Shown here: positions 7,460-17,344 of the stretch, piece by piece
Layout: every line of letters starts with the position of its first letter
How positions within the stretch are numbered: the first letter of the stretch is position 1
DNA from: a virus
DNA length: 24,145 bases
Direction: 5' to 3' (one strand)
IMG/VR virus record: IMGVR_UViG_3300005329_000029
Coordinates: 1 to 24,145 of that record
Made by a program: the position numbers and the translations under genes
Notes under the pieces: model-generated
What the model was told of the DNA's origin: nothing
The model's input: the letters and a program-made list of their open reading frames with translations, nothing else
Databases searched by the model: none

Positions 7460-7480
7460 ATATCCATCTCGTTCTCCCTG

Positions 7481-7510
7481 AATCCCTACGCCAAAAACGT
7501 AGGGATTTTT
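7481..7510 (+). terminator. Rho-independent terminator of the virion module
   Basis: AATCCCTACG pairs perfectly with CGTAGGGATT around the loop CCAAAAA, followed by a run of T. It lies 22 bases after the stop of the fibre-like gene and closes the late transcription unit. Confidence 0.9.
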
Positions 7511-7524
7511 ACTGTAAATAACAC

Positions 7525-7553
7525 TTGACAGAAGTTATCAAAATAAATACAGT
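7525..7553 (+). promoter_or_regulatory. Promoter A (GTTATCA family)
   Basis: TTGACA (7525-7530), 17-base spacer containing GTTATCA, then TACAGT (7548-7553). It shares TTGACA plus GTTATCA with the promoters at 9990, 10953 and 15782. GAATCAA, the sequence found in the loop of the family's stem-loops, follows at 7560-7566, but here with only a weak TTGA/TCAA stem. It drives the lipoprotein gene. Confidence 0.8.
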
Positions 7554-7572
7554 ATTGAGGAATCAAGAAAGT

Positions 7573-7590
7573 AATAAGAAAATTCTTATT
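7573..7590 (+). repeat. Inverted repeat in the lipoprotein leader
   Basis: AATAAGAA and TTCTTATT are perfectly complementary around a central AA. It lies downstream of promoter A and 40 bases before the gene. AT-only arms make it a weak RNA hairpin, so a DNA operator is as likely. Confidence 0.5.
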
Positions 7591-7630
7591 TATGTCACCT
7601 ATCGGGCATAAATATCAGGGAGAAAAAGTT

Positions 7631-8470
7631 ATGATTAATCCTGTCGTAAAATTCCTCACAAACAGGACAACCAAAAACATGTTTAAAGTACTGTCCGTGG
7701 TACTTATTTGCATTGCTGCAATTGCGTGTGGCGGAAGCTCACTCCCGCGTCTACCGCAAGATGGCGGCACCCCAACCGCAAGCCCTTCACCAACCCCTAC
7801 GCCAGCTCCAACGCTGACGGCCAATCAGGTATTTACAAACGTATCGCAAACATGGGTATTCACTAGCCAATGTCAGAACCTAAATTCTGACGGCACTCGC
7901 GGCCCTGTGGTTACAGCGCATACGTATGTTGAAGTGATGCCAGTTGATTCGACTCATACAACTTGGCATTACACGAAAGATCAGCCGTGCGCGTACTGGA
8001 TGCCGGATGGAATATCGGCAGAGTTGTACTTTTATCTTGAGCAAGATTCTACGGGAGCATGGTATTCGACAGGTGGGCATATCATTGCGCCATACGGGTA
8101 TCCGTGGGATTCAACCCATACGCCTCAAGACTTCACGTACACGCTTGCGATTGATCCGACAAGGCCACGACCGTACCTGATTATTCCGGCTCAGTCAGGC
8201 TCTAGTGTCATTGTGATGAAAACTACTTTTGCCGATACGCAAGGGCCAAATACGCCTTGGGAAACAGATTCCCTTACCGCATCTATAAGCACTTCGGTTT
8301 ATACCGGATGGTCAATGGAGTCGCATCAGATAGAGGGCGACTGCAATCCAAGCTGTGCCGATGAAGCATGGTTCTTTGCTGCAAATGGAACGGGGATGGT
8401 TCAAGTGACCGTGTACAACACAGGGTCAGGTCTATTGCCTGTCCCGATTGTTCTAAAGCGCATACAATAA
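7631..8470 (+). CDS. Phage-encoded lipoprotein
   Basis: A 279-residue protein starting at ATG 7631, chosen because AGGGAG lies eight bases upstream; an in-frame ATG at 7592 has no such site. Residues 17-32 are a hydrophobic signal ending in the lipobox AIA-C33, so Cys33 would be lipidated after cleavage. A Pro/Thr/Ser linker (TASPSPTPTPAPT) follows, then a Trp- and Tyr-rich ~210-residue domain with no family I recognise (SQTWVFTSQCQN, TTWHYTKDQPC, WSMESHQIEGDCNPSC). It has its own promoter and lies between two hairpins, so it is a separately controlled gene. Surface lipoproteins expressed from prophages often block superinfection; that role is only a guess here. Confidence 0.8.
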   Translation: MINPVVKFLTNRTTKNMFKVLSVVLICIAAIACGGSSLPRLPQDGGTPTASPSPTPTPAPTLTANQVFTNVSQTWVFTSQCQNLNSDGTRGPVVTAHTYVEVMPVDSTHTTWHYTKDQPCAYWMPDGISAELYFYLEQDSTGAWYSTGGHIIAPYGYPWDSTHTPQDFTYTLAIDPTRPRPYLIIPAQSGSSVIVMKTTFADTQGPNTPWETDSLTASISTSVYTGWSMESHQIEGDCNPSCADEAWFFAANGTGMVQVTVYNTGSGLLPVPIVLKRIQ

Positions 8471-8476
8471 CTATAT

Positions 8477-8525
8477 GGCTCTCTTTGATTGAAAATGGTA
8501 TGATAACCATACTTCAGAGAGAGCC
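8477..8525 (+). terminator. Long inverted repeat after the lipoprotein gene
   Basis: GGCTCTCT (8477-8484) pairs with AGAGAGCC (8518-8525), and the loop holds a second inverted repeat (ATGGT/ACCAT around TATGATA). It is followed by TTAAAAATTTAAG rather than a clean T-run, so termination is plausible but not clear. The inner part contains TGGTATGAT, an extended -10, so it could also hold a promoter. Between 8526 and 8637 I see only a short CTTAAA/TTTAAG repeat. Confidence 0.45.
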
Positions 8526-8637
8526 TTAAAAATTTAAGTTGCTGATTGCGCTATCCGTCAAGTAATCTAATCCCAATGTAATAACTGGCCGTAGTAGTAG
8601 GGAGACGGTAATACCCAAGCAACTGAAAGGCAGGGCA

Positions 8638-8973
8638 ATGTGGCATGAGGTTTGGGATGCTATCAGGTCTAACGCTGATAAGATATTCGACAATGCTCTG
8701 GGTCTACTTAGGGATACGTTTCTTCTTGTGCTTGGGGTTCACTATCGGAATCATGTACTTCGGCGCAAAGCTGAAGCAGAAGAGCTTGCCAGTAAGCAAT
8801 CAGCCCACGAAGAGCAGATTCGTCAGTTTAGGGATTGGATGGAGTCCGAGAAAAGAAGAACGCCGCAAGGGGATGATAGCGGAGCGCAGACAGGACAGGA
8901 GAACGGAATGGATAGCCACTCTGACGCTTATTCTAGGCATCATTCTAGGACACGTGGGAAGCAGAACGATTGA
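8638..8973 (+). CDS. Membrane-associated coiled-coil protein, probable lysis gene
   Basis: A 111-residue protein; AAAGG lies seven bases before ATG 8638. The codons show a regular purine-first pattern that the overlapping +1 frame lacks. Residues ~27-37 are hydrophobic (TFLLVLGVHY), residues ~42-75 form a charged amphipathic helix (RRKAEAEELASKQSAHEEQIRQF) likely to be a coiled coil, and the tail is Gly/Asp/Ser-rich. The start of the next gene lies inside its 3' end in another frame, an arrangement reminiscent of Rz/Rz1 spanin pairs. Position before a lysozyme suggests a role in lysis, as holin accessory or spanin-like protein; the sequence alone does not prove it. Confidence 0.6.
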   Translation: MWHEVWDAIRSNADKIFDNALGLLRDTFLLVLGVHYRNHVLRRKAEAEELASKQSAHEEQIRQFRDWMESEKRRTPQGDDSGAQTGQENGMDSHSDAYSRHHSRTRGKQND

Positions 8974-9253
8974 CAAGTATTTTCCTTCCACTCTTGAAGA
9001 AGTTTTAATTACCTCAGTTCATGCCGATGGCAGTTATGTAGTTCTGGATAAATACAAAAGAAAATTTGATGTCAAATGGTGCAGTGGGCCGGATGATCTT
9101 GCACCCGGAAACAAATTGCACAAGGTTTACTATCGCCAAGAAAATGGCTGTAAAAGAATCCGTGGGATGTATCTGGGATACTCCGTTTACACTCACAAGG
9201 ATGGCACGAGAATCACATTCCCAATACCTGAGGAAATAGCCTATGCCAGATGA
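8873..9253 (+). CDS. Single-pass membrane protein, probable lysis gene
   Basis: A 126-residue protein from ATG 8873, out of frame inside the preceding gene for the first 100 bases. The frame is open back to an ATG at 8645 (202 residues), but that extension competes with the better-supported frame at 8638. Residues 1-12 are strongly basic (RRQDRR), residues ~13-28 form a membrane segment (WIATLTLILGIILGHV), and a ~95-residue soluble domain with two cysteines follows (VKWCSGPDDLAPG, RQENGCKRIRG). The expected topology is N-in, domain outside. It has no lipobox. A holin or spanin-like role is inferred from position only. Confidence 0.55.
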   Translation: MIAERRQDRRTEWIATLTLILGIILGHVGSRTIDKYFPSTLEEVLITSVHADGSYVVLDKYKRKFDVKWCSGPDDLAPGNKLHKVYYRQENGCKRIRGMYLGYSVYTHKDGTRITFPIPEEIAYAR

Positions 9254-9395
9254 TCCAATTCCGCCTGTACCGCCTTCCGGATGGAAGCCGGGTGATCCTA
9301 ACCCGAATCCCAATCCACCTAAACCGCCAAGCAAGCCAGCGCACGACGAAGGCGTTACGCATGAATCGCCAGTGCCCAATCCACCCAAGCCATAA
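9243..9395 (+). CDS. Proline-rich 50-residue protein
   Basis: ATG 9243 overlaps the end of the membrane-protein gene by 11 bases. Twenty of the 50 residues are proline (PPVPPSGWKPGDPNPNPNPP and NPPKP at the end); there is no signal peptide, membrane segment or cysteine. Proline-rich small proteins beside lysozymes occur as outer spanins, but those carry a lipobox and this one does not. Its stop TAA is directly followed by a junction palindrome. It may also be a linker-like or structural peptide. Confidence 0.6.
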   Translation: MPDDPIPPVPPSGWKPGDPNPNPNPPKPPSKPAHDEGVTHESPVPNPPKP

Positions 9396-9411
9396 AGTCT
9401 TACGGTAAGAC
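9396..9411 (+). repeat. Junction palindrome copy 6
   Basis: AGTCTTACGGTAAGAC, starting immediately after the stop codon of the proline-rich gene, and followed 12 bases later by a rho-independent terminator. Confidence 0.95.
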
Positions 9412-9423
9412 ATTTTGAGATGA

Positions 9424-9454
9424 GGGCGAGATTAAGGTCTCGCCCTTGTTTTTT
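9424..9454 (+). terminator. Rho-independent terminator directly before the endolysin
   Basis: GGGCGAGA (9424-9431) pairs with TCTCGCCC (9438-9445) around TTAAGG, followed by TTGTTTTTT. The endolysin Shine-Dalgarno (AAGGA, 9455-9459) begins at the end of the T-run, leaving no space for a promoter between terminator and gene. Confidence 0.85.
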
Positions 9455-9463
9455 AAGGACAAC

Positions 9464-9874
9464 ATGGATATCATTGCGCAACTGAAAAGAGATGAAGGCT
9501 ACAATCCGAAACCATACAAAGATTCGCTTGGCAAATTGACTATCGGTTACGGAACGCTGATTGAAGATGGACTCGACCAAGAGGAATGCGAATGGTTGCT
9601 GAGACATCGGTATGAGGTCAGAGCCAAGATGCCAGTTGCTCAACAGTTGCCATGGACGCATGGGTTAGACGATGCACGTTTGGGTGCGATTGAAAATCTT
9701 GCGTACAACATGGGGATTTACGGACTGCTTTCGTTCAAGAACATGCTGGCCTGTTTACAGAGCGGGGACAACGCTGGAGCATCAAGGCATCTCTTGGACA
9801 GTAAGTATGCGGCGCAAGTCGGGCCACGCGCTCACAGATTGGCTCTACAGCTTGAAACTGGACAGTGGCAATAG
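9464..9874 (+). CDS. Endolysin, T4-type lysozyme (GH24)
   Basis: A 136-residue muramidase that cleaves the peptidoglycan glycan chain. With ATG 9464 as start (AAGGA five bases upstream) the catalytic triad falls at exactly the T4 lysozyme positions: Glu11 (KRDEGY), Asp20 (YKDSLG) and Thr26 (LTIGYG). AIENLAYNMG and FKNMLACLQSGD follow as in the family. No signal peptide is present, so release would need a holin, which makes the membrane proteins just upstream the candidates. The strong terminator in front implies read-through, antitermination or RNA processing for expression. Confidence 0.93.
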   Translation: MDIIAQLKRDEGYNPKPYKDSLGKLTIGYGTLIEDGLDQEECEWLLRHRYEVRAKMPVAQQLPWTHGLDDARLGAIENLAYNMGIYGLLSFKNMLACLQSGDNAGASRHLLDSKYAAQVGPRAHRLALQLETGQWQ

Positions 9875-9884
9875 TCCACAAACA

Positions 9885-9953
9885 CCCCTGTATTGCTCCA
9901 AAAAAGCCCTTTCCTGCCCCTCATTCGGACATCCCTACCCCTAGCCTACCCCT
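9885..9953 (+). repeat. Phased CCCCT motifs after the endolysin
   Basis: CCCCT occurs at 9885, 9917, 9938 and 9949, spaced 32, 21 and 11 bases, close to whole helical turns. C-runs are uncommon in this AT-richer DNA. The region from 9875 to 10058 has no gene; it holds these motifs, then promoter B and its stem-loop. Confidence 0.35.
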
Positions 9954-9989
9954 GTAAATCCAAGAGCTTAAATTAAGTAAAAATAAATC

Positions 9990-10018
9990 TTGACAAGGTT
10001 ATCAAAATAACTTAGGAT
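9990..10018 (+). promoter_or_regulatory. Promoter B (GTTATCA family)
   Basis: TTGACA (9990-9995), 17-base spacer with GTTATCA (9998-10004), TAGGAT (10013-10018). GTTAT and ATAAC in the spacer form an inverted repeat around CAAA. Confidence 0.85.
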
Positions 10019-10025
10019 ACAGACA

Positions 10026-10044
10026 TTGCAGCAATCAACTGCAA
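10026..10044 (+). promoter_or_regulatory. 5'-terminal stem-loop with CAATCAA loop (B)
   Basis: TTGCAG pairs with CTGCAA around the 7-base loop CAATCAA. It starts eight bases after the -10 box, where transcription should begin, and ends just before the AAGAGGAG ribosome site of the next gene. Confidence 0.7.
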
Positions 10045-10058
10045 AAGAGGAGATCAAA

Positions 10059-10316
10059 ATGGAAAATAAAAATCAGGTTCCAAAAATTACAATCGACGGA
10101 AACACCGCTAGCTCCAATGCGATGCTGGATAACGTTACGGCTGACACTTGTGCTTGCTGGGATAGCAAGGAATTCGAGAAAGCCAAGAAGTTGCTCAAGA
10201 ATGGTTCAGTAGTCGAATGTGAAGATGCGACGGCCTATGTAGCGTTAAAATCTCTCGCTCTAGAAATGCTCATGCATGGGAGAAAAGTAAAAGCCAAGAT
10301 CATCAAGAATTGGTAG
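10059..10316 (+). CDS. Small early protein, 85 residues
   Basis: ATG 10059 with AAGAGGAG upstream. The product is mixed charged, contains CACW near residue 30 and AYVALKSLALEMLMHG, a probable helix, near the C-terminus, and ends in a basic KVKAKIIKNW. No family recognised. It is the first gene behind promoter B and its stem-loop, so it is probably made early and in quantity. Confidence 0.75.
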   Translation: MENKNQVPKITIDGNTASSNAMLDNVTADTCACWDSKEFEKAKKLLKNGSVVECEDATAYVALKSLALEMLMHGRKVKAKIIKNW

Positions 10317-10352
10317 TTTAATGTCGGCATGTATTACCAGATGGACTGAAAA

Positions 10353-10368
10353 AGTCTTACTGTAAGAC
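10353..10368 (+). repeat. Junction palindrome copy 7
   Basis: AGTCTTACTGTAAGAC, 36 bases after the stop of the preceding gene. A very short frame MYYQMD (10329-10349) ends with TGA just AAA before it, the same spacing as at other copies, but I do not claim that frame is expressed. Confidence 0.95.
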
Positions 10369-10379
10369 AGCGCGTGACC

Positions 10380-10403
10380 GGGGGCTCGTCCCCCAGATAA
10401 GAG
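10380..10403 (+). promoter_or_regulatory. GC hairpin and 17-base direct repeat, first copy
   Basis: GGGGG (10380-10384) pairs with CCCCC (10390-10394) around CTCGT. The overlapping CGTCCCCCAGATAAGAG (10387-10403) recurs identically at 10588-10604. Each copy forms the leader of a small zinc-ribbon gene; here the repeat runs into the GAGGAG ribosome site. Confidence 0.65.
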
Positions 10404-10411
10404 GAGATTTT

Positions 10412-10582
10412 ATGAAATGCAGGGTTTGTAAGGCGAAACTCATCGGAAACGAGAAGAAGGGCGACAGGTGCAACAAGTGCATCGATGCCGCAATCGCTGA
10501 AACTGAAAAATCGCATTGTCCCAATAATTGCGATTGTCATTTTACTGAACGGCTAGCACGGTCTTACGCGGCTGAGTTTTAA
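10412..10582 (+). CDS. Small zinc-ribbon-like protein, 56 residues
   Basis: ATG 10412 with AAGAGGAG upstream. Cysteine pairs CRVC (residues 3-6) and CNKC about 20 residues later form a typical treble-clef or zinc ribbon spacing, and CPNNCDCH provides further ligands. Too short for the usual gene-finding cut-off. No specific family recognised; small zinc proteins of this kind in phage early regions often bind host transcription or replication enzymes. Confidence 0.7.
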   Translation: MKCRVCKAKLIGNEKKGDRCNKCIDAAIAETEKSHCPNNCDCHFTERLARSYAAEF

Positions 10583-10587
10583 AAGGG

Positions 10588-10604
10588 CGTCCCCCAGATA
10601 AGAG
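10588..10604 (+). repeat. 17-base direct repeat, second copy
   Basis: CGTCCCCCAGATAAGAG, identical to 10387-10403, preceded by GGG so that a small GGG/CCC hairpin remains possible. It lies in the leader of the next zinc-ribbon gene. Confidence 0.7.
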
Positions 10605-10615
10605 AAAAGAACAAA

Positions 10616-10780
10616 ATGGGCGTAGGCGTGAAATCCGAAGGCGAATACAGGCAGGATCGTTGCTTGCACGTTTTGGAGCAGCTCGATCCGAAGAAGGAAG
10701 ATGGTTTCAAGTATCGCTGCATAAAGTGCGACAAGTACATGAAGCGCAAAAATGGAGTCGTGAAACCATGCCCGAAATAA
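10616..10780 (+). CDS. Small cysteine-rich protein, 54 residues
   Basis: ATG 10616 behind AAGAGAAAAGAAC, a weak ribosome site. Contains RCLH near residue 16 and the pair CIKC about 23 residues later, plus a final C-P-K, consistent with one zinc site. Strongly basic. Its stop TAA overlaps the next start (TAATG). Part of a run of three tiny cysteine-pair genes (10412-10956) sharing a duplicated leader. Confidence 0.65.
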   Translation: MGVGVKSEGEYRQDRCLHVLEQLDPKKEDGFKYRCIKCDKYMKRKNGVVKPCPK

Positions 10781-10956
10781 TGTCCAAGAATGACTGCTGG
10801 TATTGCGGCAAGCCGAAGCGTGGGTTTTATCTTCTAAGCGACATTTACTGTGAAGTGTGCGACACCTGCATCGCTTTTCAGAATGTTCCGTGGCGCGTGA
10901 TGGGTTCCATCTCAGGGGGACGCATAGAGGGGAAAACAATTCAAAATAACTGTTGA
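10780..10956 (+). CDS. Small zinc-ribbon protein, 58 residues
   Basis: The TAATG overlap at 10778-10782 points to coupled translation from ATG 10780; an in-frame ATG at 10768 would add four residues. CWYC and CEVCDTC, separated by 15 residues, give a clear zinc ribbon. The last codons run into promoter C: the stop TGA (10954-10956) is inside its -35 TTGACA. Unknown function. Confidence 0.65.
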   Translation: MSKNDCWYCGKPKRGFYLLSDIYCEVCDTCIAFQNVPWRVMGSISGGRIEGKTIQNNC

Positions 10957-10981
10957 CAAAGGTTATCAAAACAATTAAGCT
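10953..10981 (+). promoter_or_regulatory. Promoter C (GTTATCA family)
   Basis: TTGACA (10953-10958), 17-base spacer with GTTATCA (10962-10968), weak -10 TAAGCT (10976-10981). The -35 box overlaps the stop codon of the upstream gene. Drives the ParB-family gene. Confidence 0.75.
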
Positions 10982-10986
10982 ACACA

Positions 10987-11005
10987 TATCGCCAATCAAG
11001 CGATA
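10987..11005 (+). promoter_or_regulatory. 5'-terminal stem-loop with CAATCAA loop (C)
   Basis: TATCGC pairs with GCGATA around CAATCAA, six bases after the -10 box and directly followed by the GAGGAG ribosome site. The loop is identical to that at 10026 while the stem sequence differs but keeps its pairing. Confidence 0.75.
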
Positions 11006-11020
11006 GAGGAGATAAACAAA

Positions 11021-11854
11021 ATGGAATCGACAAAAGAAGTTACTCGCCTACGTGATTTGAGACTCAGCGCAAGAGATCAATTCATTCTTGATCCCAAAAC
11101 AATTTCAATCGAAGATGGTCACAACCCAAGATCGTATAACCTTGCGGAAAACCAGCAGCATTTGAATGATTTGAAAGCCAGCATCCGTGAAAACGGAGTG
11201 CGAGTACCGATACTTGTCCGGTACGAACCTGCCACAAAGAGAGCCGTTTTAGTTGACGGAGAATGCCGTCTCAGGGCCACATTGGAACTGATTGCCGAAG
11301 GGGTCGAGATCGTAGGCATTCCGGCAATCCAATCAGACGGCAGCAATCCGGCAGAAAGACTTTTGACGGCCATCGTTTGCAATACCGGCAAGCCTCTCAG
11401 TAAGTGGGAATCGGGGACTGCATTCGTTCGGCTGCGTCGGTTCGGCTGGGATGATATTTCCATCGCCAAGCGTACAGGAAATTCTCTGCGGTTTGTGACG
11501 GAAGCAATCGAGCTTTCGGATGCACCGGATGAAGTCAAGAAAATGATGAGCGAGAAAACCGTGACTCCTGCTCTGGCATTAAGCGAAGTCAGAAAGAATG
11601 GAGCGGGAGCGGTTGAAAAGTTGAAGGCGAAGGCCGAAGCTGCGCAGAAGAAAGGCGACAAGACAGCCAAGCGCGAACAGCCTAACCGGATACCGAATCC
11701 CAAACAGATGTTGGGCCTTGTGGCGAAGCTAGTAGGAAGCGTACAGGATGACATCTTTAATGATGAGTTCAAGTTTGTGGAAGTGGACAGGTTGACGATG
11801 GTAAAACTTGCCGGCCTTGTGGGAGTCACGGCGGATGGAAGGGAGAAAAAGTAA
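11021..11854 (+). CDS. ParB-family DNA-binding protein
   Basis: A 277-residue protein starting at ATG 11021 with GAGGAG upstream. Residues ~25-100 are the ParB/Srx N-terminal domain: NPRSY, then LNDLKASIRENGVRVPILVRY, then DGECRLRA at 79-86, where the usual GERR motif has Cys for the first Arg. Residues ~125-190 look like the helix-turn-helix part (WDDISIAKRTGNSLRFVTEAIEL, followed by TPALALSEV). A Lys/Ala-rich stretch and a short C-terminal domain follow. It should bind DNA as a dimer and may bind CTP as ParB proteins do. No ParA is in the window, so the role may be regulation rather than partition. It is controlled by promoter C. Confidence 0.85.
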   Translation: MESTKEVTRLRDLRLSARDQFILDPKTISIEDGHNPRSYNLAENQQHLNDLKASIRENGVRVPILVRYEPATKRAVLVDGECRLRATLELIAEGVEIVGIPAIQSDGSNPAERLLTAIVCNTGKPLSKWESGTAFVRLRRFGWDDISIAKRTGNSLRFVTEAIELSDAPDEVKKMMSEKTVTPALALSEVRKNGAGAVEKLKAKAEAAQKKGDKTAKREQPNRIPNPKQMLGLVAKLVGSVQDDIFNDEFKFVEVDRLTMVKLAGLVGVTADGREKK

Positions 11855-12058
11855 ATGCCAAAGGTTCATGGAACGAGAAAACAGAAAGCCAACGAATTAC
11901 TGCGTATGGTTACTAATGGGCCTAGTTTCTCTCTCGGTTTTCTGCACCAGAGTACCGAGAGGGATAAATATCTAAAGTTGGCCGAAAAGGATTATCGTCT
12001 ATGGGCTAACAGTTGGATCATTCCCAAATTGAAAGAATTATTTTCAGAACTTAAGTAA
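11855..12058 (+). CDS. Small basic protein, 67 residues
   Basis: ATG 11855 directly after the parB-like stop, with GGGAG upstream. Helical, basic and aromatic (MPKVHGTRKQKANELL, DYRLWANSWIIPKLKELFSELK). Not recognised. The spacing implies co-expression with the ParB-family gene. Confidence 0.65.
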   Translation: MPKVHGTRKQKANELLRMVTNGPSFSLGFLHQSTERDKYLKLAEKDYRLWANSWIIPKLKELFSELK

Positions 12059-12078
12059 GCGTGATTGATCTTTCATCC

Positions 12079-12173
12079 GAGTGTAAAGCCAGCGGGAAAC
12101 CGCACCCCCGCTATCTCCCGCACTCTGAAAGCGTGGAGGCTGATAACCTTCCGGGCCAGTACGCAAGCTGGCC
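12079..12173 (+). ncRNA. Candidate structured RNA leader
   Basis: The 140 bases between 12058 and 12199 are GC-richer than their surroundings and contain several helices. GCGG and CCGC close a GAAA tetraloop (12092-12103). GAGTG (12079) pairs with CACTC (12121). GGCCAG (12154-12159) pairs with CTGGCC (12168-12173). A GGTGAG ribosome site follows the last one. No open frame or promoter is evident. It could be a regulatory leader for the gene at 12199, but I do not recognise a known riboswitch class. Confidence 0.35.
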
Positions 12174-12198
12174 ACAAATTTAAATCAGGTGAGAAAAA

Positions 12199-12525
12199 AT
12201 GTTTAATCCAGTTGTAGCAATGCTTCACAATGAGAAGTTAAACAAGTGGCATCCGATTTGGTTTGAGGAATCACCATTGCCGGGGTCATATTCTGAAGAT
12301 AAGCCAGTGCGCCATAAAAGCAAGGGCCATCACACGCAAGGATTTGATACGCGGGAATCTGCCTTGATTGCGGCAAAGGAATTATCCAGCGCATTGAAAG
12401 AGCAAGCAATCGGGCCTATATCTCTCGCACTGGAGAAAGATTTTCAATGGGATGGAGATGGCATTCCAGCGATGGTCGTTTTCTTTGCTATCGAAAACGA
12501 AACAGCAGTACCAATGATTGCCTGA
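12199..12525 (+). CDS. Hypothetical protein, 108 residues
   Basis: ATG 12199 with GGTGAG eight bases upstream. A mixed alpha/beta sequence with GFDTRESALIAAKEL (a helix after a beta-hairpin, like small DRBM- or RNase-H-insert-like folds) and FFAIENETAVPMIA at the end. No confident family. It follows a structured leader and precedes the recombination block; its TGA is followed by AAA and a junction palindrome. Confidence 0.7.
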   Translation: MFNPVVAMLHNEKLNKWHPIWFEESPLPGSYSEDKPVRHKSKGHHTQGFDTRESALIAAKELSSALKEQAIGPISLALEKDFQWDGDGIPAMVVFFAIENETAVPMIA

Positions 12526-12528
12526 AAA

Positions 12529-12544
12529 AGTCTTACCGTCATAC
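12529..12544 (+). repeat. Junction palindrome copy 8 (GTCATAC variant)
   Basis: AGTCTTACCGTCATAC, three bases after the TGA at 12523-12525. Identical to copy 2 at 1519. Confidence 0.9.
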
Positions 12545-12559
12545 AAAAAGGAAACCACG

Positions 12560-13507
12560 ATGCCCACAGATTTAGTTCACGTAGCAGACGAAGATGTATC
12601 GCTGCTGAGTTTGGCCGATAAACCTTCAACCGTTTTAGATCAAGCCAAGCTAGCGGCCAATACCATCATGTCGGTAATCAATGCCAAGAAAAAACAGATT
12701 GTTTTCAATGGCGAAAAATACTTCGAGAATGACGATTGGGTACTCGTAGCAAAAATGTATGGGATTGTTCCCCGCATTGTGGGTGAGCCGGAGTATGTGG
12801 AGTTTGGTGAAGTCAAGGGATTCAAGGCAGTGTGTGAGGCTGTGCTTGTGGCTACGGATCAAGTAGTAGGACGCGCCTATGCTATGTGTTTGAATGACGA
12901 AGAGAATTGGGGTGACCGTCCAAAGTACGAATGGCGCGATGTACTGGACGCGGAAGGAAAGAAGATTTGGGAAGAAAAGTTAATCAAGGGCAAGATGAAA
13001 AAACTTCCTAAGTCTGAAAAGGTACAAGTGGGAGTGGTCAAGGTGCCATTGTTTCAGTTGATGAGCATGGCCCAGACTCGCGCCAGTTCAAAAGTATTGA
13101 GCATGGTTCTGAAATTTGTTCCTGTACTCGCCGGATTCAAGCCGACTCCAGCGGAAGAAATACCAAACGATGGCAGCGAGTTTGCGCATGAGAACGAAAG
13201 AGAGTCCAATCATCCTACACGCGCCAAGCGCAAAAATAACCCCGATGAATCGCAGCCTGAAAAGCCCCATGACCCTGACTGTATTACCTCTGCTCAAGCT
13301 AGCGAGATGTGGCGATTAGCGAGAGGCAAGGGGAAACTTTCAGAGCAAGAGGTACGCGAGAGATTGGCCGAATTGAAAGGGAAAAACGGGAAGCCAGTAA
13401 CTAGCGCACTGGATATGCTCAAAACAGACTACATCAAATTTATTTCGTCATTGCCAAACGTAACCGAATCGGATTACAGGCAAGAGGAGCCGGGAGCTAG
13501 CGGGTAA
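12560..13507 (+). CDS. Probable single-strand annealing/recombination protein
   Basis: A 315-residue protein starting at ATG 12560 (AAAAGGAAA upstream). Residues ~55-200 match a phage family I know by pattern: KKKQIVFNGEKYFENDDWVLVAKMYGIVP, FKAVCEAVL, AMCLNDEENWGDRP (W117), the strongly conserved MAQTRASSKVLSMVL (around residue 172) and AGFKPTPAEEIP. A charged linker follows. Residues ~250-305 (ITSAQASEMWRLARGKGKLSEQEVRERLAEL) resemble the C-terminal helical segment seen in RecT and ERF-type annealing proteins. An exonuclease of the RecB type is encoded 1.4 kb downstream, the usual partner of such a protein. Assignment to annealing is inference. Confidence 0.6.
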   Translation: MPTDLVHVADEDVSLLSLADKPSTVLDQAKLAANTIMSVINAKKKQIVFNGEKYFENDDWVLVAKMYGIVPRIVGEPEYVEFGEVKGFKAVCEAVLVATDQVVGRAYAMCLNDEENWGDRPKYEWRDVLDAEGKKIWEEKLIKGKMKKLPKSEKVQVGVVKVPLFQLMSMAQTRASSKVLSMVLKFVPVLAGFKPTPAEEIPNDGSEFAHENERESNHPTRAKRKNNPDESQPEKPHDPDCITSAQASEMWRLARGKGKLSEQEVRERLAELKGKNGKPVTSALDMLKTDYIKFISSLPNVTESDYRQEEPGASG

Positions 13508-13860
13508 TGCGCAATCCAGAGCAAATCATGAAAGCACTTGAGCGCAAGGGGTATAAGGTAGAGCGCCTTACGTCCTATCAATTTCGTTTGGAATGCGTTT
13601 TCGATCTATACGTCATTCGGTTTCGATGGCACAACATTGCAAACAACACTCGCGGTAGTTGGCATGGATTAAACGAGCAGCAGTTAACCAATTTGATAGA
13701 TCAACAGGTAGCGATTGCCGATGGAATTTTAGATCGTGAAATAGCGGCAGGGAGAATTACAGAAGAGGGAGAACCTGTAGCAGTAGGGAAGCGTGATGTC
13801 GATAGTGCAATTTGGTGGACGAAAAATGGATTGGAAAAGTCTCGCGGTAAGACTAATTGA
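13507..13860 (+). CDS. Hypothetical protein, 117 residues
   Basis: Starts in a TAATG overlap with the annealing-protein gene, so translation is probably coupled. Contains an N-terminal alpha/beta stretch (MKALERKGYKVERLTSYQFRLE, LYVIRFRWHNI) and a helical middle. The last residues EKSRGKTN are encoded by a junction palindrome in a frame where it has no stop. Not recognised. Confidence 0.7.
   Translation: MRNPEQIMKALERKGYKVERLTSYQFRLECVFDLYVIRFRWHNIANNTRGSWHGLNEQQLTNLIDQQVAIADGILDREIAAGRITEEGEPVAVGKRDVDSAIWWTKNGLEKSRGKTN
13838..13854 (+). repeat. Junction palindrome copy 9, inside a coding end
   Basis: AGTCTCGCGGTAAGACT, read in frame as K-S-R-G-K-T just before the stop of the gene. The only copy with G at position 7. 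Confidence 0.9.
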
Positions 13861-13864
13861 AGGT

Positions 13865-13984
13865 ATGAGGAAAATTGCAGTCATGGAAAATGTTTTCTAT
13901 CACGCTATCTCTCCGCGTGGAACAATAATTTACTCACCCAATAGGCAACTGCTGGAAAGAATCATTGCTGCGTTAGTAGGTTAA
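13865..13984 (+). CDS. Possible small protein, 39 residues
   Basis: ATG 13865 follows GAAGG, but only one base separates them; ATG 13883 (33 residues, MENVFYHAISPRG) is the alternative. The sequence VFYHAISPRGTIIYSPNRQLLERIIAAL reads like a compact beta-hairpin plus helix, which supports it being real. Not recognised. Confidence 0.45.
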   Translation: MRKIAVMENVFYHAISPRGTIIYSPNRQLLERIIAALVG

Positions 13985-13988
13985 ATCT

Positions 13989-14183
13989 ATGACAATGACA
14001 GCCGAGCAGTTACAGAATGAGCTAGAAAGTATTCACAAGGCGATGGCTTCGTTTATCGCAAACGATATAAGTTTCTTCGGTGCAAAAATTCTATTGGTCA
14101 ATCGCTTAAAGATAACAATGGGAGAGGCTGAAGATCGTCTCAGGATGTACGAAAGTATTACCAATAAGCAATTGGCGAGGTAG
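13989..14183 (+). CDS. Small helical protein, 64 residues
   Basis: ATG 13989 with GTAGG nine bases upstream. Predicted to be nearly all helix (MTAEQLQNELESIHKAMASFI, AEDRLRMYESITNKQLA). Not recognised. It lies in a run of small overlapping genes before the DnaJ-like gene. Confidence 0.6.
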   Translation: MTMTAEQLQNELESIHKAMASFIANDISFFGAKILLVNRLKITMGEAEDRLRMYESITNKQLAR

Positions 14184-14186
14184 CCC

Positions 14187-14318
14187 ATGGCGTTCTACAT
14201 CAGGCCAGAAAAGTTCTGTAACGACTGCGGGTATCCGATAGATCAATGCGAATGCCTGTATCCAGACAGCGAAGAAGTGGAATCGGAAGAAGAAGTGAGA
14301 GACGAGGATTACCTGTGA
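14187..14318 (+). CDS. Small zinc-binding acidic protein, 43 residues
   Basis: ATG 14187 with GAGG six bases upstream. CNDCGYPIDQCECLY gives a C-x2-C-x7-C-x-C site, followed by a strongly acidic tail (DSEEVESEEEVRDED). It ends in a GTGA overlap with the DnaJ-like gene. Zinc site plus acidic tail is a layout seen in small phage proteins that bind host enzymes; the target is unknown. Confidence 0.65.
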   Translation: MAFYIRPEKFCNDCGYPIDQCECLYPDSEEVESEEEVRDEDYL

Positions 14319-14959
14319 GAGAGACCGCTGAATATTATTTCGGAAATAAGTTTCCGATGACACGGGCAGAATTTAAATCTTGCTTCCGTGAGGCGGTACG
14401 CCGTTTGCGTCCTGATTTGGCAAACAACAAAGCAAATGATGAGGAATTTATTACTATCCGTAAACTCTATGAGGATATTACAAAATCCTCCCCATCTTGG
14501 GCATTCACAGATGGCGTTACTTCGATAGAACTGCGGACAACCTCTGGCGAATTGCTATCTGATTTAGGGTTGGGCATCGGGCCATTGAAAAATGGAAAGG
14601 ATTGCGGCCAGTGCGGAAAGAAAGGTTTTACCGAAGAACAAGAATTTGGATGGACGCGCTGCGTTAATTGTCATGGATCAGGGTATTCATATTCTCAGCC
14701 TTGCAGGAATTGTAAAAGCAAGGGGAATTATGACATCGTAACCCCTACTTCTCGCCGTACAGTCGAATGTAGAAGTTGTCACGGTAAGGGTTCGTTCCCG
14801 ACACGGAGAATAGAACTTTGCCAAGAATGCAGAGGTCTTGGCCAGAAAAAACTTGATAAGCCAAAAACTGTATACCATTTTTGTTATACATGTAATGGAC
14901 TTGGCGAAGTAGAGATTTTTAATCCAGTAATCCCAAAAGGAAGGATAGTAAGTAAGTGA
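14315..14959 (+). CDS. DnaJ-like protein with six zinc CxxC modules
   Basis: A 214-residue protein starting at GTG 14315 (GAGG upstream, overlap with the previous stop). Residues ~14-55 look like a reduced J-domain; where DnaJ has HPD this has RPD (32-34), followed by FITIRKLYEDI like the last J helix. From residue 97 there are six CxxC modules with DnaJ-type Gly spacing: 97/100, 116/119, 130/133, 152/155, 169/172 and 190/193, several as CxxCxGxG. DnaJ itself has four. Loss of the His should weaken DnaK stimulation, so it may act as a zinc-dependent binding protein rather than a co-chaperone. It sits between the annealing protein and the exonuclease. Confidence 0.75.
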   Translation: MRETAEYYFGNKFPMTRAEFKSCFREAVRRLRPDLANNKANDEEFITIRKLYEDITKSSPSWAFTDGVTSIELRTTSGELLSDLGLGIGPLKNGKDCGQCGKKGFTEEQEFGWTRCVNCHGSGYSYSQPCRNCKSKGNYDIVTPTSRRTVECRSCHGKGSFPTRRIELCQECRGLGQKKLDKPKTVYHFCYTCNGLGEVEIFNPVIPKGRIVSK

Positions 14960-15633
14960 CTCACTCCATCCAATTCCGCGATACCGATGTCAACGGTAAG
15001 CCAGTACATGAGTACGAAGTCAATGGACTAAGGACTCCGTATGTAACAGGAGTTTTAAATGATCGTGGATTCTGTGATTATGCGTCGTGTCCAGAAGATT
15101 TCATGGAAGCGGCAAGAGCGCGTGGGAATATTGGGCATGAAGTAACGCGCTGGTTCGATGAGGCGTTTTACGCAGAATTACACGAAGGCGATGCGGAGTA
15201 TTACACCGATAGATTTGAAGGTAATTTTCTTGAAGAGCCGTTGCATCCGTGGTCGCGTATTCAACTCAGAGCTTGGGTTGGTTTCAGGATTGATTTCGAT
15301 TTCCGTCCAACGATAATTGAAAAGGCGATGGTCTGGAAAATAAACGGCATGACGATTTGTGGAACATTGGACAGGTTCGGGCCATCACGATTAGGCCCAA
15401 TGGTAATTGATCTGAAATTTACTTCCAAGATTGAACGATCAGTAAAGTACCAGCTTGCGGCTTACGCGGCCAATCCTGAATTGCACGTTAAGGGTAAAAG
15501 ACCATTGCGATATGCAGCGCATTTTAAAGATGGAAAAGTTATCCCTGTACCGTTTACGCGAATGAAGGATGAGCAGATTTTCAGTGCAGCTCTGGCGATA
15601 ACACATGACTTGTGGAATGGTGGTGGAAAATAG
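14956..15633 (+). CDS. PD-(D/E)XK exonuclease, RecB/Cas4-like
   Basis: A 225-residue protein starting at GTG 14956 in a GTGA overlap. The family motifs appear in order: GNIGHEVTRWFDE with His61, IIEKAMVW with Glu122, GTLDRFG with Asp139, VIDLKFTS with Asp152 and Lys154, and YQLAAYA with Gln166 and Tyr170. These are the metal- and DNA-contacting residues of the RecB-like nuclease fold. It would resect double-strand ends, handing single strands to the annealing protein encoded upstream. Length suits a single-domain phage exonuclease. The TAG stop is part of a junction palindrome. Confidence 0.85.
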   Translation: MTHSIQFRDTDVNGKPVHEYEVNGLRTPYVTGVLNDRGFCDYASCPEDFMEAARARGNIGHEVTRWFDEAFYAELHEGDAEYYTDRFEGNFLEEPLHPWSRIQLRAWVGFRIDFDFRPTIIEKAMVWKINGMTICGTLDRFGPSRLGPMVIDLKFTSKIERSVKYQLAAYAANPELHVKGKRPLRYAAHFKDGKVIPVPFTRMKDEQIFSAALAITHDLWNGGGK

Positions 15634-15648
15634 TCTCACCGTAAGACT
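15632..15648 (+). repeat. Junction palindrome copy 10
   Basis: AGTCTCACCGTAAGACT; its first AG is the end of the exonuclease TAG stop. Confidence 0.95.
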
Positions 15649-15781
15649 TTCCCCCGCATTCGGCCACCATTTAAACCTATCGCCATTGGGCCGTAATTGA
15701 CCGTACAGCGTCCTATAGGGCATATCTTGAGCCATCCTGTACCCCAAGATTCCGATGGTTTATAAGGGGAGACGATTTATC
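15649..15781 (+). other. Gene-free interval with weak inverted repeats
   Basis: No credible frame. It contains CGGCC (15661) with GGCCG (15689), an 8-base palindrome CCTATAGG, and ATCTTG (15724-15729) with CAAGAT (15745-15750). None has a terminator T-run. Confidence 0.4.
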
Positions 15782-15810
15782 TTGACAAAGGTTATCATAA
15801 TAATTATATT
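15782..15810 (+). promoter_or_regulatory. Promoter D (GTTATCA family)
   Basis: TTGACA (15782-15787), 17-base spacer with GTTATCA (15791-15797), TATATT (15805-15810). The best-scoring member of the four. Confidence 0.88.
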
Positions 15811-15815
15811 GAGTG

Positions 15816-15832
15816 TACGGTAATCAGCCGTA
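15816..15832 (+). promoter_or_regulatory. 5'-terminal stem-loop with TAATCAG loop (D)
   Basis: TACGG pairs with CCGTA around TAATCAG, six bases after the -10 box. AAGGGGAG, the ribosome site, follows at once. Confidence 0.65.
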
Positions 15833-15846
15833 AGGGGAGATTAAAT

Positions 15847-16059
15847 ATGACAATCGAACAGATTAAAGCACTCAAGGCAGTAGCGGATGCAATCATTGAA
15901 ACCGTACAAGGTGCAGGGCCAATGGGAGCACCAGGGGGGCATATTTACGCTGCTTTGATGGCGCAAGGATGCACGTTACATCAGTACGAACAAATAATGT
16001 CAGGATTGGTACGCGCTGGAAAACTAAGAAAATCTGGCGAGTGCTATTTTGCTGTTTAA
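15847..16059 (+). CDS. Small winged-helix-like protein, 70 residues
   Basis: ATG 15847 behind AAGGGGAG. The layout of helix (IKALKAVADAIIETVQ), GAPGGHIYAALMAQGCTLHQYEQIMSGLVRAGKLRKSGECYFAV resembles a winged helix: recognition helix, then a two-strand wing ending in the C-terminus. It may bind DNA. It has the strongest promoter of its family directly upstream. Confidence 0.7.
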   Translation: MTIEQIKALKAVADAIIETVQGAGPMGAPGGHIYAALMAQGCTLHQYEQIMSGLVRAGKLRKSGECYFAV

Positions 16060-16084
16060 TTTCAAGAGCCGATAATCAATCGGC
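16055..16084 (+). promoter_or_regulatory. Stem-loop with AATCA loop and possible -10 (E)
   Basis: GCCGAT (16068-16073) pairs with ATCGGC (16079-16084) around AATCA, followed by AGAGGGAG. TTTAAT at 16055-16060 lies seven bases before the stem, the same distance as in B-D, but I find no good -35, so the promoter part is tentative. Confidence 0.55.
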
Positions 16085-16097
16085 AGAGGGAGAAACA

Positions 16098-16244
16098 ATG
16101 GCTTGGACTAAAGAAGATGACGAAATTGCTTATCAAATGAGTATTACTCACCCAATTTGTACTGTCTGTAAAGACAGCGGTTTCTATACCGATTTTACGG
16201 TTAACCCGCCAGAGCGCAAACCTTGTGAGAATTGCAATGTCTAG
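16098..16244 (+). CDS. Small cysteine-pair protein, 48 residues
   Basis: ATG 16098 behind AGAGGGAG and the AATCA stem-loop. CTVCKDSGFYTD and CENCN form two CxxC pairs 20 residues apart, like half of a DnaJ zinc centre or a zinc ribbon. Its TAG overlaps the start of the next gene. Not assigned to a family. Confidence 0.7.
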   Translation: MAWTKEDDEIAYQMSITHPICTVCKDSGFYTDFTVNPPERKPCENCNV

Positions 16245-17328: not shown

Positions 17329-17344
17329 AGTCTTACGGTGAGAC
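17329..17344 (+). repeat. Junction palindrome copy 11 (GTGAG variant)
   Basis: AGTCTTACGGTGAGAC. The only copy with G at position 12, which creates GGTGAG, a ribosome site, three bases before ATG 17348. Confidence 0.92.

Follow-up and report, generated by a model that had tools for sequence, protein, structure and literature searches.

Stem-loops coupled to promoters, called PeSLs, are reportedly the subject of papers by Arbiol (2010) and Comeau (2014), one title containing the words 'composite conserved promoter-terminator motifs'. In the available part of their description, PeSLs are units of promoter and stem-loop in T4-type phages where genes are shuffled (PMC4503421), and the part of the account of the haloarchaeal virus HGTV-1 at hand reports a promoter-like motif with an inverted repeat before many open reading frames (ORFs), proposed to serve in regulation and shuffling (PMC3950731). 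Elements nearer to the ribosome site are also known. The translational operator of gene 43 in T4 and RB69 is a hairpin about 40 nt before the start codon with the loop UAAC, which is read by a protein and serves one autoregulated gene (PMC3014915), and the cluster K mycobacteriophages carry SAS, whose 13-bp sequence is constant, and ESAS, an inverted repeat of 17 bp in which the arms are constant and the spacer varies (PMC3203893). Here we analyse a stretch of viral DNA of 24,145 bases (IMG/VR record IMGVR_UViG_3300005329_000029; the window), in which promoters of one family are followed by short hairpins with a common loop, YAATCAR, and then by a Shine-Dalgarno (SD) sequence. With about even confidence, we take the arrangement to be a portable expression cassette for exchangeable genes, made up of promoter, 5' hairpin and SD, with an operator-like repeat in the promoter spacer and a loop that is probably read by a trans-acting factor.

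The window is fully identical to positions 26,589-50,733 of a viral record of 67,068 bases (G001; IMGVR_UViG_3300025944_000010), and a search with the promoter motif yielded two more full-size relatives, G002 (IMGVR_UViG_3300036855_000005; 64,904 bases) and G003 (IMGVR_UViG_3300020170_000003; 66,588 bases). Gene order is mostly common to the three, and protein identity is roughly 50-98%. The fragments L161, L185 and L183 (terminase identity 98, 77 and 80%, respectively) and L172 are members of the same phage group, whose genomes of 65-67 kb are not of the T4 type.

The initial annotation of the window had noted paired stems with an AATCA loop between promoter and ribosome site, and after promoters B, C and D such stems are indeed present, with 5-6 bp, a YAATCAR loop and a neighbouring SD (Table 1). 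Under a strict definition (five Watson-Crick pairs, a YAATCAR loop and an SD within 12 nt), 5, 3 and 1 copies were found in G001, G002 and G003, against 0.0, 0.0 and 0.005 in 200 dinucleotide shuffles. When the SD condition was dropped, there were still nine strict copies in the three genomes, against 0.12 expected from shuffles, and all nine precede an SD. AATCA is also the commonest loop core among hairpins of 5 bp with a 7-base loop that stand before an SD in the three genomes (nine cases, the next core reaching three). A relaxed count, which tolerates a single insertion, a single change in the loop and the loss of an outer pair, gives 13 hairpins in four related phages, all of them in coding orientation and adjoining an SD.

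These 13 sequences were aligned. Over five pairs, 96.7% of the stem cells are paired, and double compensatory changes occur at four of the five, the fifth (C-G) being invariant. Covariation scores 0.647, compared with 0.153 +/- 0.049 for shuffles and 0.02-0.17 for alignments with the partners shifted by 1-3 columns. In the loop, YAATCAR, the bases ATCA are the same in 13/13. Moreover, a covariance model built from the five G001 copies alone was tried on the eight copies in other phages and recovered seven of them at E <= 0.011; the one in L161 had E = 0.51, and one additional match lies within a gene. With a model built from all copies (R1), members score at least 26.6 bits and everything else at most 18.1, and nothing below E = 0.5 was found in 0.8 Mb of control loci. 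The suggestion of the annotation that the element acts as RNA, with varying paired arms and a kept loop, is thus supported by the covariance analysis of related leaders. SAS and ESAS resemble it as repeated elements, of unassigned function, immediately before the translation starts of genes from different families, but the constant arms and variable spacer of ESAS are the reverse of the variable arms and constant loop seen here. A search for hairpins with a TGATT loop, as a possible loop-loop partner, returned only antisense copies of known hairpins and scattered unshared matches.

The place of the hairpin is also fixed. In all 11 promoter-linked copies the stem begins 5-8 nt after the end of the -10 box (7 nt for B, 5 nt for both C and D), and each stem is followed, at 0-6 nt, by a GGAG-type SD. 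Going by the usual distance between -10 and start, the first base of the hairpin would lie at about position +1 of the mRNA. In predicted leader folds the SD is unpaired in nearly all copies. Because the arms covary, the loop is kept and the place between -10 and SD is fixed, we favour a hairpin that is read in the RNA. The fifth stem of the annotation, hairpin E, does have the TAATCAA loop and paired arms, but the possible -10 proposed for it has no counterpart in G002, whose DNA upstream of the hairpin is unrelated. Since this hairpin has been kept without a promoter in both G001 and G002, it argues that the element can work beside an SD even inside an operon.

Comparison of these sequences suggests the following course of events. 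A sigma70-type promoter (TTGACA-17-TATAtT), with a putative regulator bound at GGTTAT-N4-ATAACC in its spacer, would start the transcript; the hairpin would then form in the mRNA and close its 5' end, which may slow 5'-end-dependent decay. The single-stranded YAAUCAR loop may be recognised by a candidate trans-acting factor, most likely a phage or host RNA-binding protein, which in turn may tune translation from the adjacent SD, and the shared cassette would supply homology for the swapping of accessory genes. It is the conservation of the loop that points to recognition in trans, the adjoining SD that points to translation, and the position at the predicted 5' end that points to stability; a role of the hairpin in mRNA stability or translation, as the annotation proposed, is putative. 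The gene 43 operator likewise has a short conserved hairpin loop near the ribosome site, a trait of the gp43 and MS2 type, but here there are 13 copies before mostly unrelated genes and the reader is only putative.

It could also be that the hairpin is a passive stabiliser of the mRNA 5' end, for which any 5'-terminal stem would suffice, the loop being the same through recent common ancestry. The ompA leader, reportedly studied by Emory, Bouvet and Belasco (1992), is said to contain a 5'-terminal stabilising stem-loop of this kind, and it resembles the present leaders in having a stem-loop ahead of the SD and at the mRNA 5' end or close to it, which is here a predicted position. The stem would start within a few nucleotides of the 5' end in all promoter-linked copies, and 5'-terminal structure is known to protect against RppH and RNase E (PMC3997798). 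However, in ompA the stem is what counts, not a conserved loop; here the arms are compensated at four of five pairs while ATCA never changes, and hairpin E, an internal copy kept without a nearby promoter, indicates that a 5'-end position is not required. We therefore consider passive stabilisation rather unlikely, though it deserves serious attention. An antitermination signal, that is, a boxB- or nut-like RNA by which RNA polymerase acquires a phage factor at each transcript start, might likewise have a 5-bp stem with variable arms and a conserved loop near the 5' end, and terminators do lie upstream of some cassettes. Lambdoid boxB has a GNRA-like pentaloop, which the YAATCAR loop with its AATCA core is not; in addition, 0-6 nt separate the hairpin from the SD of the first gene, so that it would be covered by a translating ribosome, and hairpin E is internal to an operon, all of which makes antitermination improbable.

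Table 1. Positions of the cassette elements and of other features. Positions refer to the window unless another genome or fragment is named.
Feature	Position	Strand	Details
Terminator-like hairpin upstream of promoter A	7480..7508	+	CCCTACG-CCAAAAA-CGTAGGG, then T run
Promoter A	7525..7553	+	TTGACA-17-TACAGT; same family, without YAATCAR hairpin
Different leader hairpin of promoter A	7588..7613	+	ATTTATGTC-acctatcg-GGCATAAAT, before SD; conserved in L172
Promoter B	9990..10018	+	TTGACA-17-TAGGAT
Operator-like inverted repeat, spacer of promoter B	9997..10012	+	GGTTAT-CAAA-ATAACT; ortholog G002:195 is GGTTAT-CAAA-ATAACC
Hairpin B	10026..10044	+	TTGCAG-CAATCAA-CTGCAA
SD of gene B	10049..10052	+	GGAG
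Gene B	10059..10316	+	85 aa, function unassigned; relative elsewhere in G003, none in G002
Promoter C	10953..10981	+	TTGACA-17-TAAGCT
Hairpin C	10987..11005	+	TATCGC-CAATCAA-GCGATA
SD of gene C	11006..11011	+	GAGGAG
Gene C	11021..11854	+	ParB/KorB-like, 277 aa; neither G002 nor G003 has a full-length counterpart
Promoter D	15782..15810	+	TTGACA-17-TATATT
Hairpin D	15816..15832	+	TACGG-TAATCAG-CCGTA
SD of gene D	15834..15839	+	GGGGAG
Gene D	15847..16059	+	70 aa; G002 has it behind the orthologous cassette (94% identity), G003 lacks it
Hairpin E	16068..16084	+	GCCGA-TAATCAA-TCGGC; no family promoter; hairpin and SD 94% identical in G002, flanks unrelated
SD of gene E	16088..16092	+	GGGAG
Gene E	16098..16244	+	48 aa; unrelated to the 203-aa gene after the same hairpin in G002
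YAATCAR hairpins of G001	B, C, D, E, and F at 55,656 of G001
YAATCAR hairpins of G002	224, 3878, 4636, 19441, 62768
YAATCAR hairpins of G003	15468, 24399
YAATCAR-type hairpin of L161	3523		loop CGATCAA
GTCTYACNGTAAKAC palindromes	9397-9411, 10354-10368, 12530-12544, 13839-13853, 15633-15647, 17330-17344, 19456-19470, 20478-20492, 22099-22113, 23784-23798

The four promoters with TTGACA and GTTATCA listed by the annotation (A-D) are all present. Every promoter of the family has TTGACA, a spacer of 17-18 bases and TAxxxT, the form TTGACA-17-TAxxxT being found at the 11 hairpin-linked sites as well as at promoters without a hairpin, and most share the upstream sequence AAAATAAC. GTTATCA proved to be the left half of an operator-like inverted repeat, GGTTAT-N4-ATAACC, which is perfect in G002 (position 195) and near-perfect elsewhere. 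With a spacer of 4, such repeats number 6, 7 and 12 in the three genomes, compared with about 2 for other spacer lengths, and binding of a regulator within the promoter spacer would therefore be the simplest reason for their conservation. Outside the window, at G001 64035, G002 29766 and G003 45915, the sequence GGTTATAATGATAACCATG has GGTTAT-N4-ATAACC overlapping a TATAAT box about 7 nt before ATG, which suggests leaderless transcripts under the same regulator. The inclusion of promoter A among the hairpin-bearing members could not be upheld, since its GAATCAA does not lie in such a hairpin and its homolog in L172 reads GAACCAT there and so lacks AATCA; another leader hairpin follows this promoter instead. 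In virus contigs from other samples that have TTGACA-N2-GTTATCA promoters (L142, L144, L146, L147 and L148), TAATCAAGAGAAAG stands without any stem close to where transcription is predicted to begin, and it may be a separate motif of the start region. Marine phage contigs have TTGACA-N2/3-GTTATCA by construction of the search; some of them carry TAATCAAGAGAAAG in this place, but as they have no stem they were not counted as members. Hairpin promoters of the N4 type were also dropped as an explanation, as N4 loops are 3 nt, a size different from that found here, and a consensus promoter lies upstream of the present hairpins.

Behind the cassettes the genes differ from phage to phage. At slot 1, promoter A and its other leader hairpin are found in G001 and L172 and a YAATCAR hairpin in G002, with unrelated genes. 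Slot 2, which follows the lysozyme gene in G001 and G002, holds an 85-aa gene in the former and an unrelated 117-aa gene in the latter behind leaders that are 90% identical; G003 there has an unrelated 86-aa gene. At slot 4, gene D of G001 and G002 is replaced in G003 by a different gene of 51 aa. At slot 5, that of hairpin E, the 40 bases on each side of the conserved hairpin and SD are at background identity between G001 and G002, and at slot 6 the genes are unrelated in all phages, G003 having a promoter without a hairpin. Cassettes that are kept thus border replaced genes at slots 2, 4, 5 and 6. None of the 11 first genes behind cassettes is found in both other phages, compared with 151 of 319 other genes (Fisher p = 0.001).

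This pattern could mean that the cassette is an exchange site at the DNA level, kept mainly as shared homology or as a hairpin recombination site, with a loop that has no role in RNA; the borders of the replaced genes, and slot 5, where only hairpin and SD are shared, are in line with it. Mere homology, however, would not keep pairing through compensatory changes of the arms, all 13 copies are in coding orientation next to an SD, and no recombinase is linked to the cassette, so that a pure DNA role has in our opinion little chance of being the explanation. As for the known units, the likeness to T4-type cassettes drawn in the annotation stands in so far as the cassette is kept while the gene behind it is replaced, but not for the hairpin, which belongs to the 5' leader and is no terminator; promoter A and the promoter-less stem E do not fit the simple picture of a promoter joined to a stem. 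Judged from the available part of their description, PeSLs share with the present units a host-type promoter and a stem-loop in repeated intergenic units bordering exchanged genes, as well as a terminator hairpin immediately ahead of the promoter at slots 1 and 6. On the same basis they differ in that the conserved hairpin here sits by the SD without a T run, the loop is kept on covarying arms, hairpin E has no promoter and the phage is not of the T4 type. As the conserved hairpin is a leader element rather than a terminator and the phages are not T4-type, we do not class the cassette as a PeSL, although it is alike in marking exchangeable genes. With HGTV-1 the conserved promoter-like motif with an inverted repeat ahead of genes is shared, whereas the promoter there is of the archaeal TATA type, and a leader hairpin with conserved loop and variable arms is absent from the part of its description at hand.

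True terminators of these phages lie upstream of the promoter, as separate hairpins and at slots 1 and 6 only. The one before promoter A has counterparts at this slot in L172 and in G002, the arms being changed in the latter. At slot 6, a terminator-type hairpin with a T run stands directly before the promoter in all five phages examined; its arms covary as well, with double changes at six of eight pairs and 90% paired, and its loops are TGTAAGCATT, TGCAATCATT, TGTAATCAGT, TGTAATCATT and TGCAATCATTT, with TGYAATCATT/GT in four of the five phages. By these sequences, a YAATCA-type loop is kept on changing arms in the slot-6 terminator too. That the 13 leader hairpins are themselves terminators or attenuators, or palindromic sites for a double-strand DNA protein, is scarcely credible: although an inverted repeat does lie downstream of the promoter, none of the 13 is followed by a T run, the terminators are found elsewhere, and the arms differ among copies, leaving no fixed double-strand site. 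In loops of long hairpins TAATCA tops its letter permutations (4 against a mean of 0.58), the numbers being small and some of the hairpins lying inside genes. After the slot-6 gene of G001, at 56557-56585 and outside the window, there is an 11-bp hairpin, CTGGCCATTGT-ctaatca-GCAATGGCCAG, followed by GGAG and a small gene. YAAUCA-type loops might be a phage-specific RNA address on both leader hairpins (13 copies) and slot-6 terminator, read in both places by one trans-acting factor that would coordinate termination of the upstream operon with translation of the exchangeable gene that follows, but this wider proposal is distinctly doubtful.

Several points weigh against the cassette with an RNA-read hairpin as we propose it. 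The copies share descent, so that the loop may be conserved partly by inheritance and the independent changes of the arms are fewer than the copies; the claim therefore rests on the drift of paired arms against a kept loop, together with the prediction of other copies. Promoter and hairpin also occur apart, as hairpin E and three family promoters of G003 show, the predicted fold of one copy (G002_D) prefers another structure, and the gene-swap comparison rests on crude gene calls. Lastly, the cassette is known from four phages of one group, all from metagenomes, and was found in none of the cultured phages and genomes searched. Among 50,697 known phages there is no DNA match. The closest terminases, 38-49% identical, come from non-T4 phages such as Edwardsiella vB_EpM_ZHS and Bdellovibrio phi1422, comparison of DnaB with known phages gave distant matches only, and that of ParB gave 252 partial matches, all below 60% identity. 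Genome contigs searched by protein and by pattern held no relative, the seven pattern matches all being without the hairpin. R1 found no match in Curvibacter PCA1, Agrobacterium Milano, Edwardsiella ZHS and six other virus records, an empty result that shows little. The Rfam 15 covariance models had no match in the window up to E = 5, and no tRNA or tmRNA was found.

Other repeats and structured leaders were noted in these phages. Each of the three genomes has about 35 copies of the 15-bp palindrome GTCTYACNGTAAKAC, which follow an A run and are mostly intergenic or just after stop codons; since changes in its half-sites break RNA pairing, the palindrome is probably a DNA site, of the stoperator, ParB or repressor type. 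GTCTTACNGTAAGAC palindromes were considered as a second RNA hairpin and rejected, as T to C changes on the left give C.A mismatches. The leader of a NUDIX-like gene (window 23207-23270) has a 20-bp hairpin, GCGGAGTAGGTCAATTTT...TTGATTTACTCCGC, with the loop CCCAAGA, the complement of a TCTTGGG that overlaps the SD; this is a possible pseudoknot switch by prediction. The hairpin is kept in G002, stands with changed arms before another gene in G003, and has no Rfam match. A structured-looking leader including GGCCAGTACGCAAGCTGGCC (window 12061-12199) before a 108-aa ORF at 12199 likewise has no Rfam match.

Our analysis extends the idea of joined promoters and stem-loops from T4-type phages and haloviruses to another group of phages, in which the place and the likely role of the hairpin differ. 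The cassette would be a compact regulatory part, consisting of promoter, operator, loop-coded 5' hairpin and SD, that stays put while genes pass behind it, and as such it bears on how phages may take in foreign genes and have them expressed immediately. Since the loop is conserved while the stems vary freely, a specific RNA reader is to be expected, and its discovery would provide a new phage RNA-protein pair.

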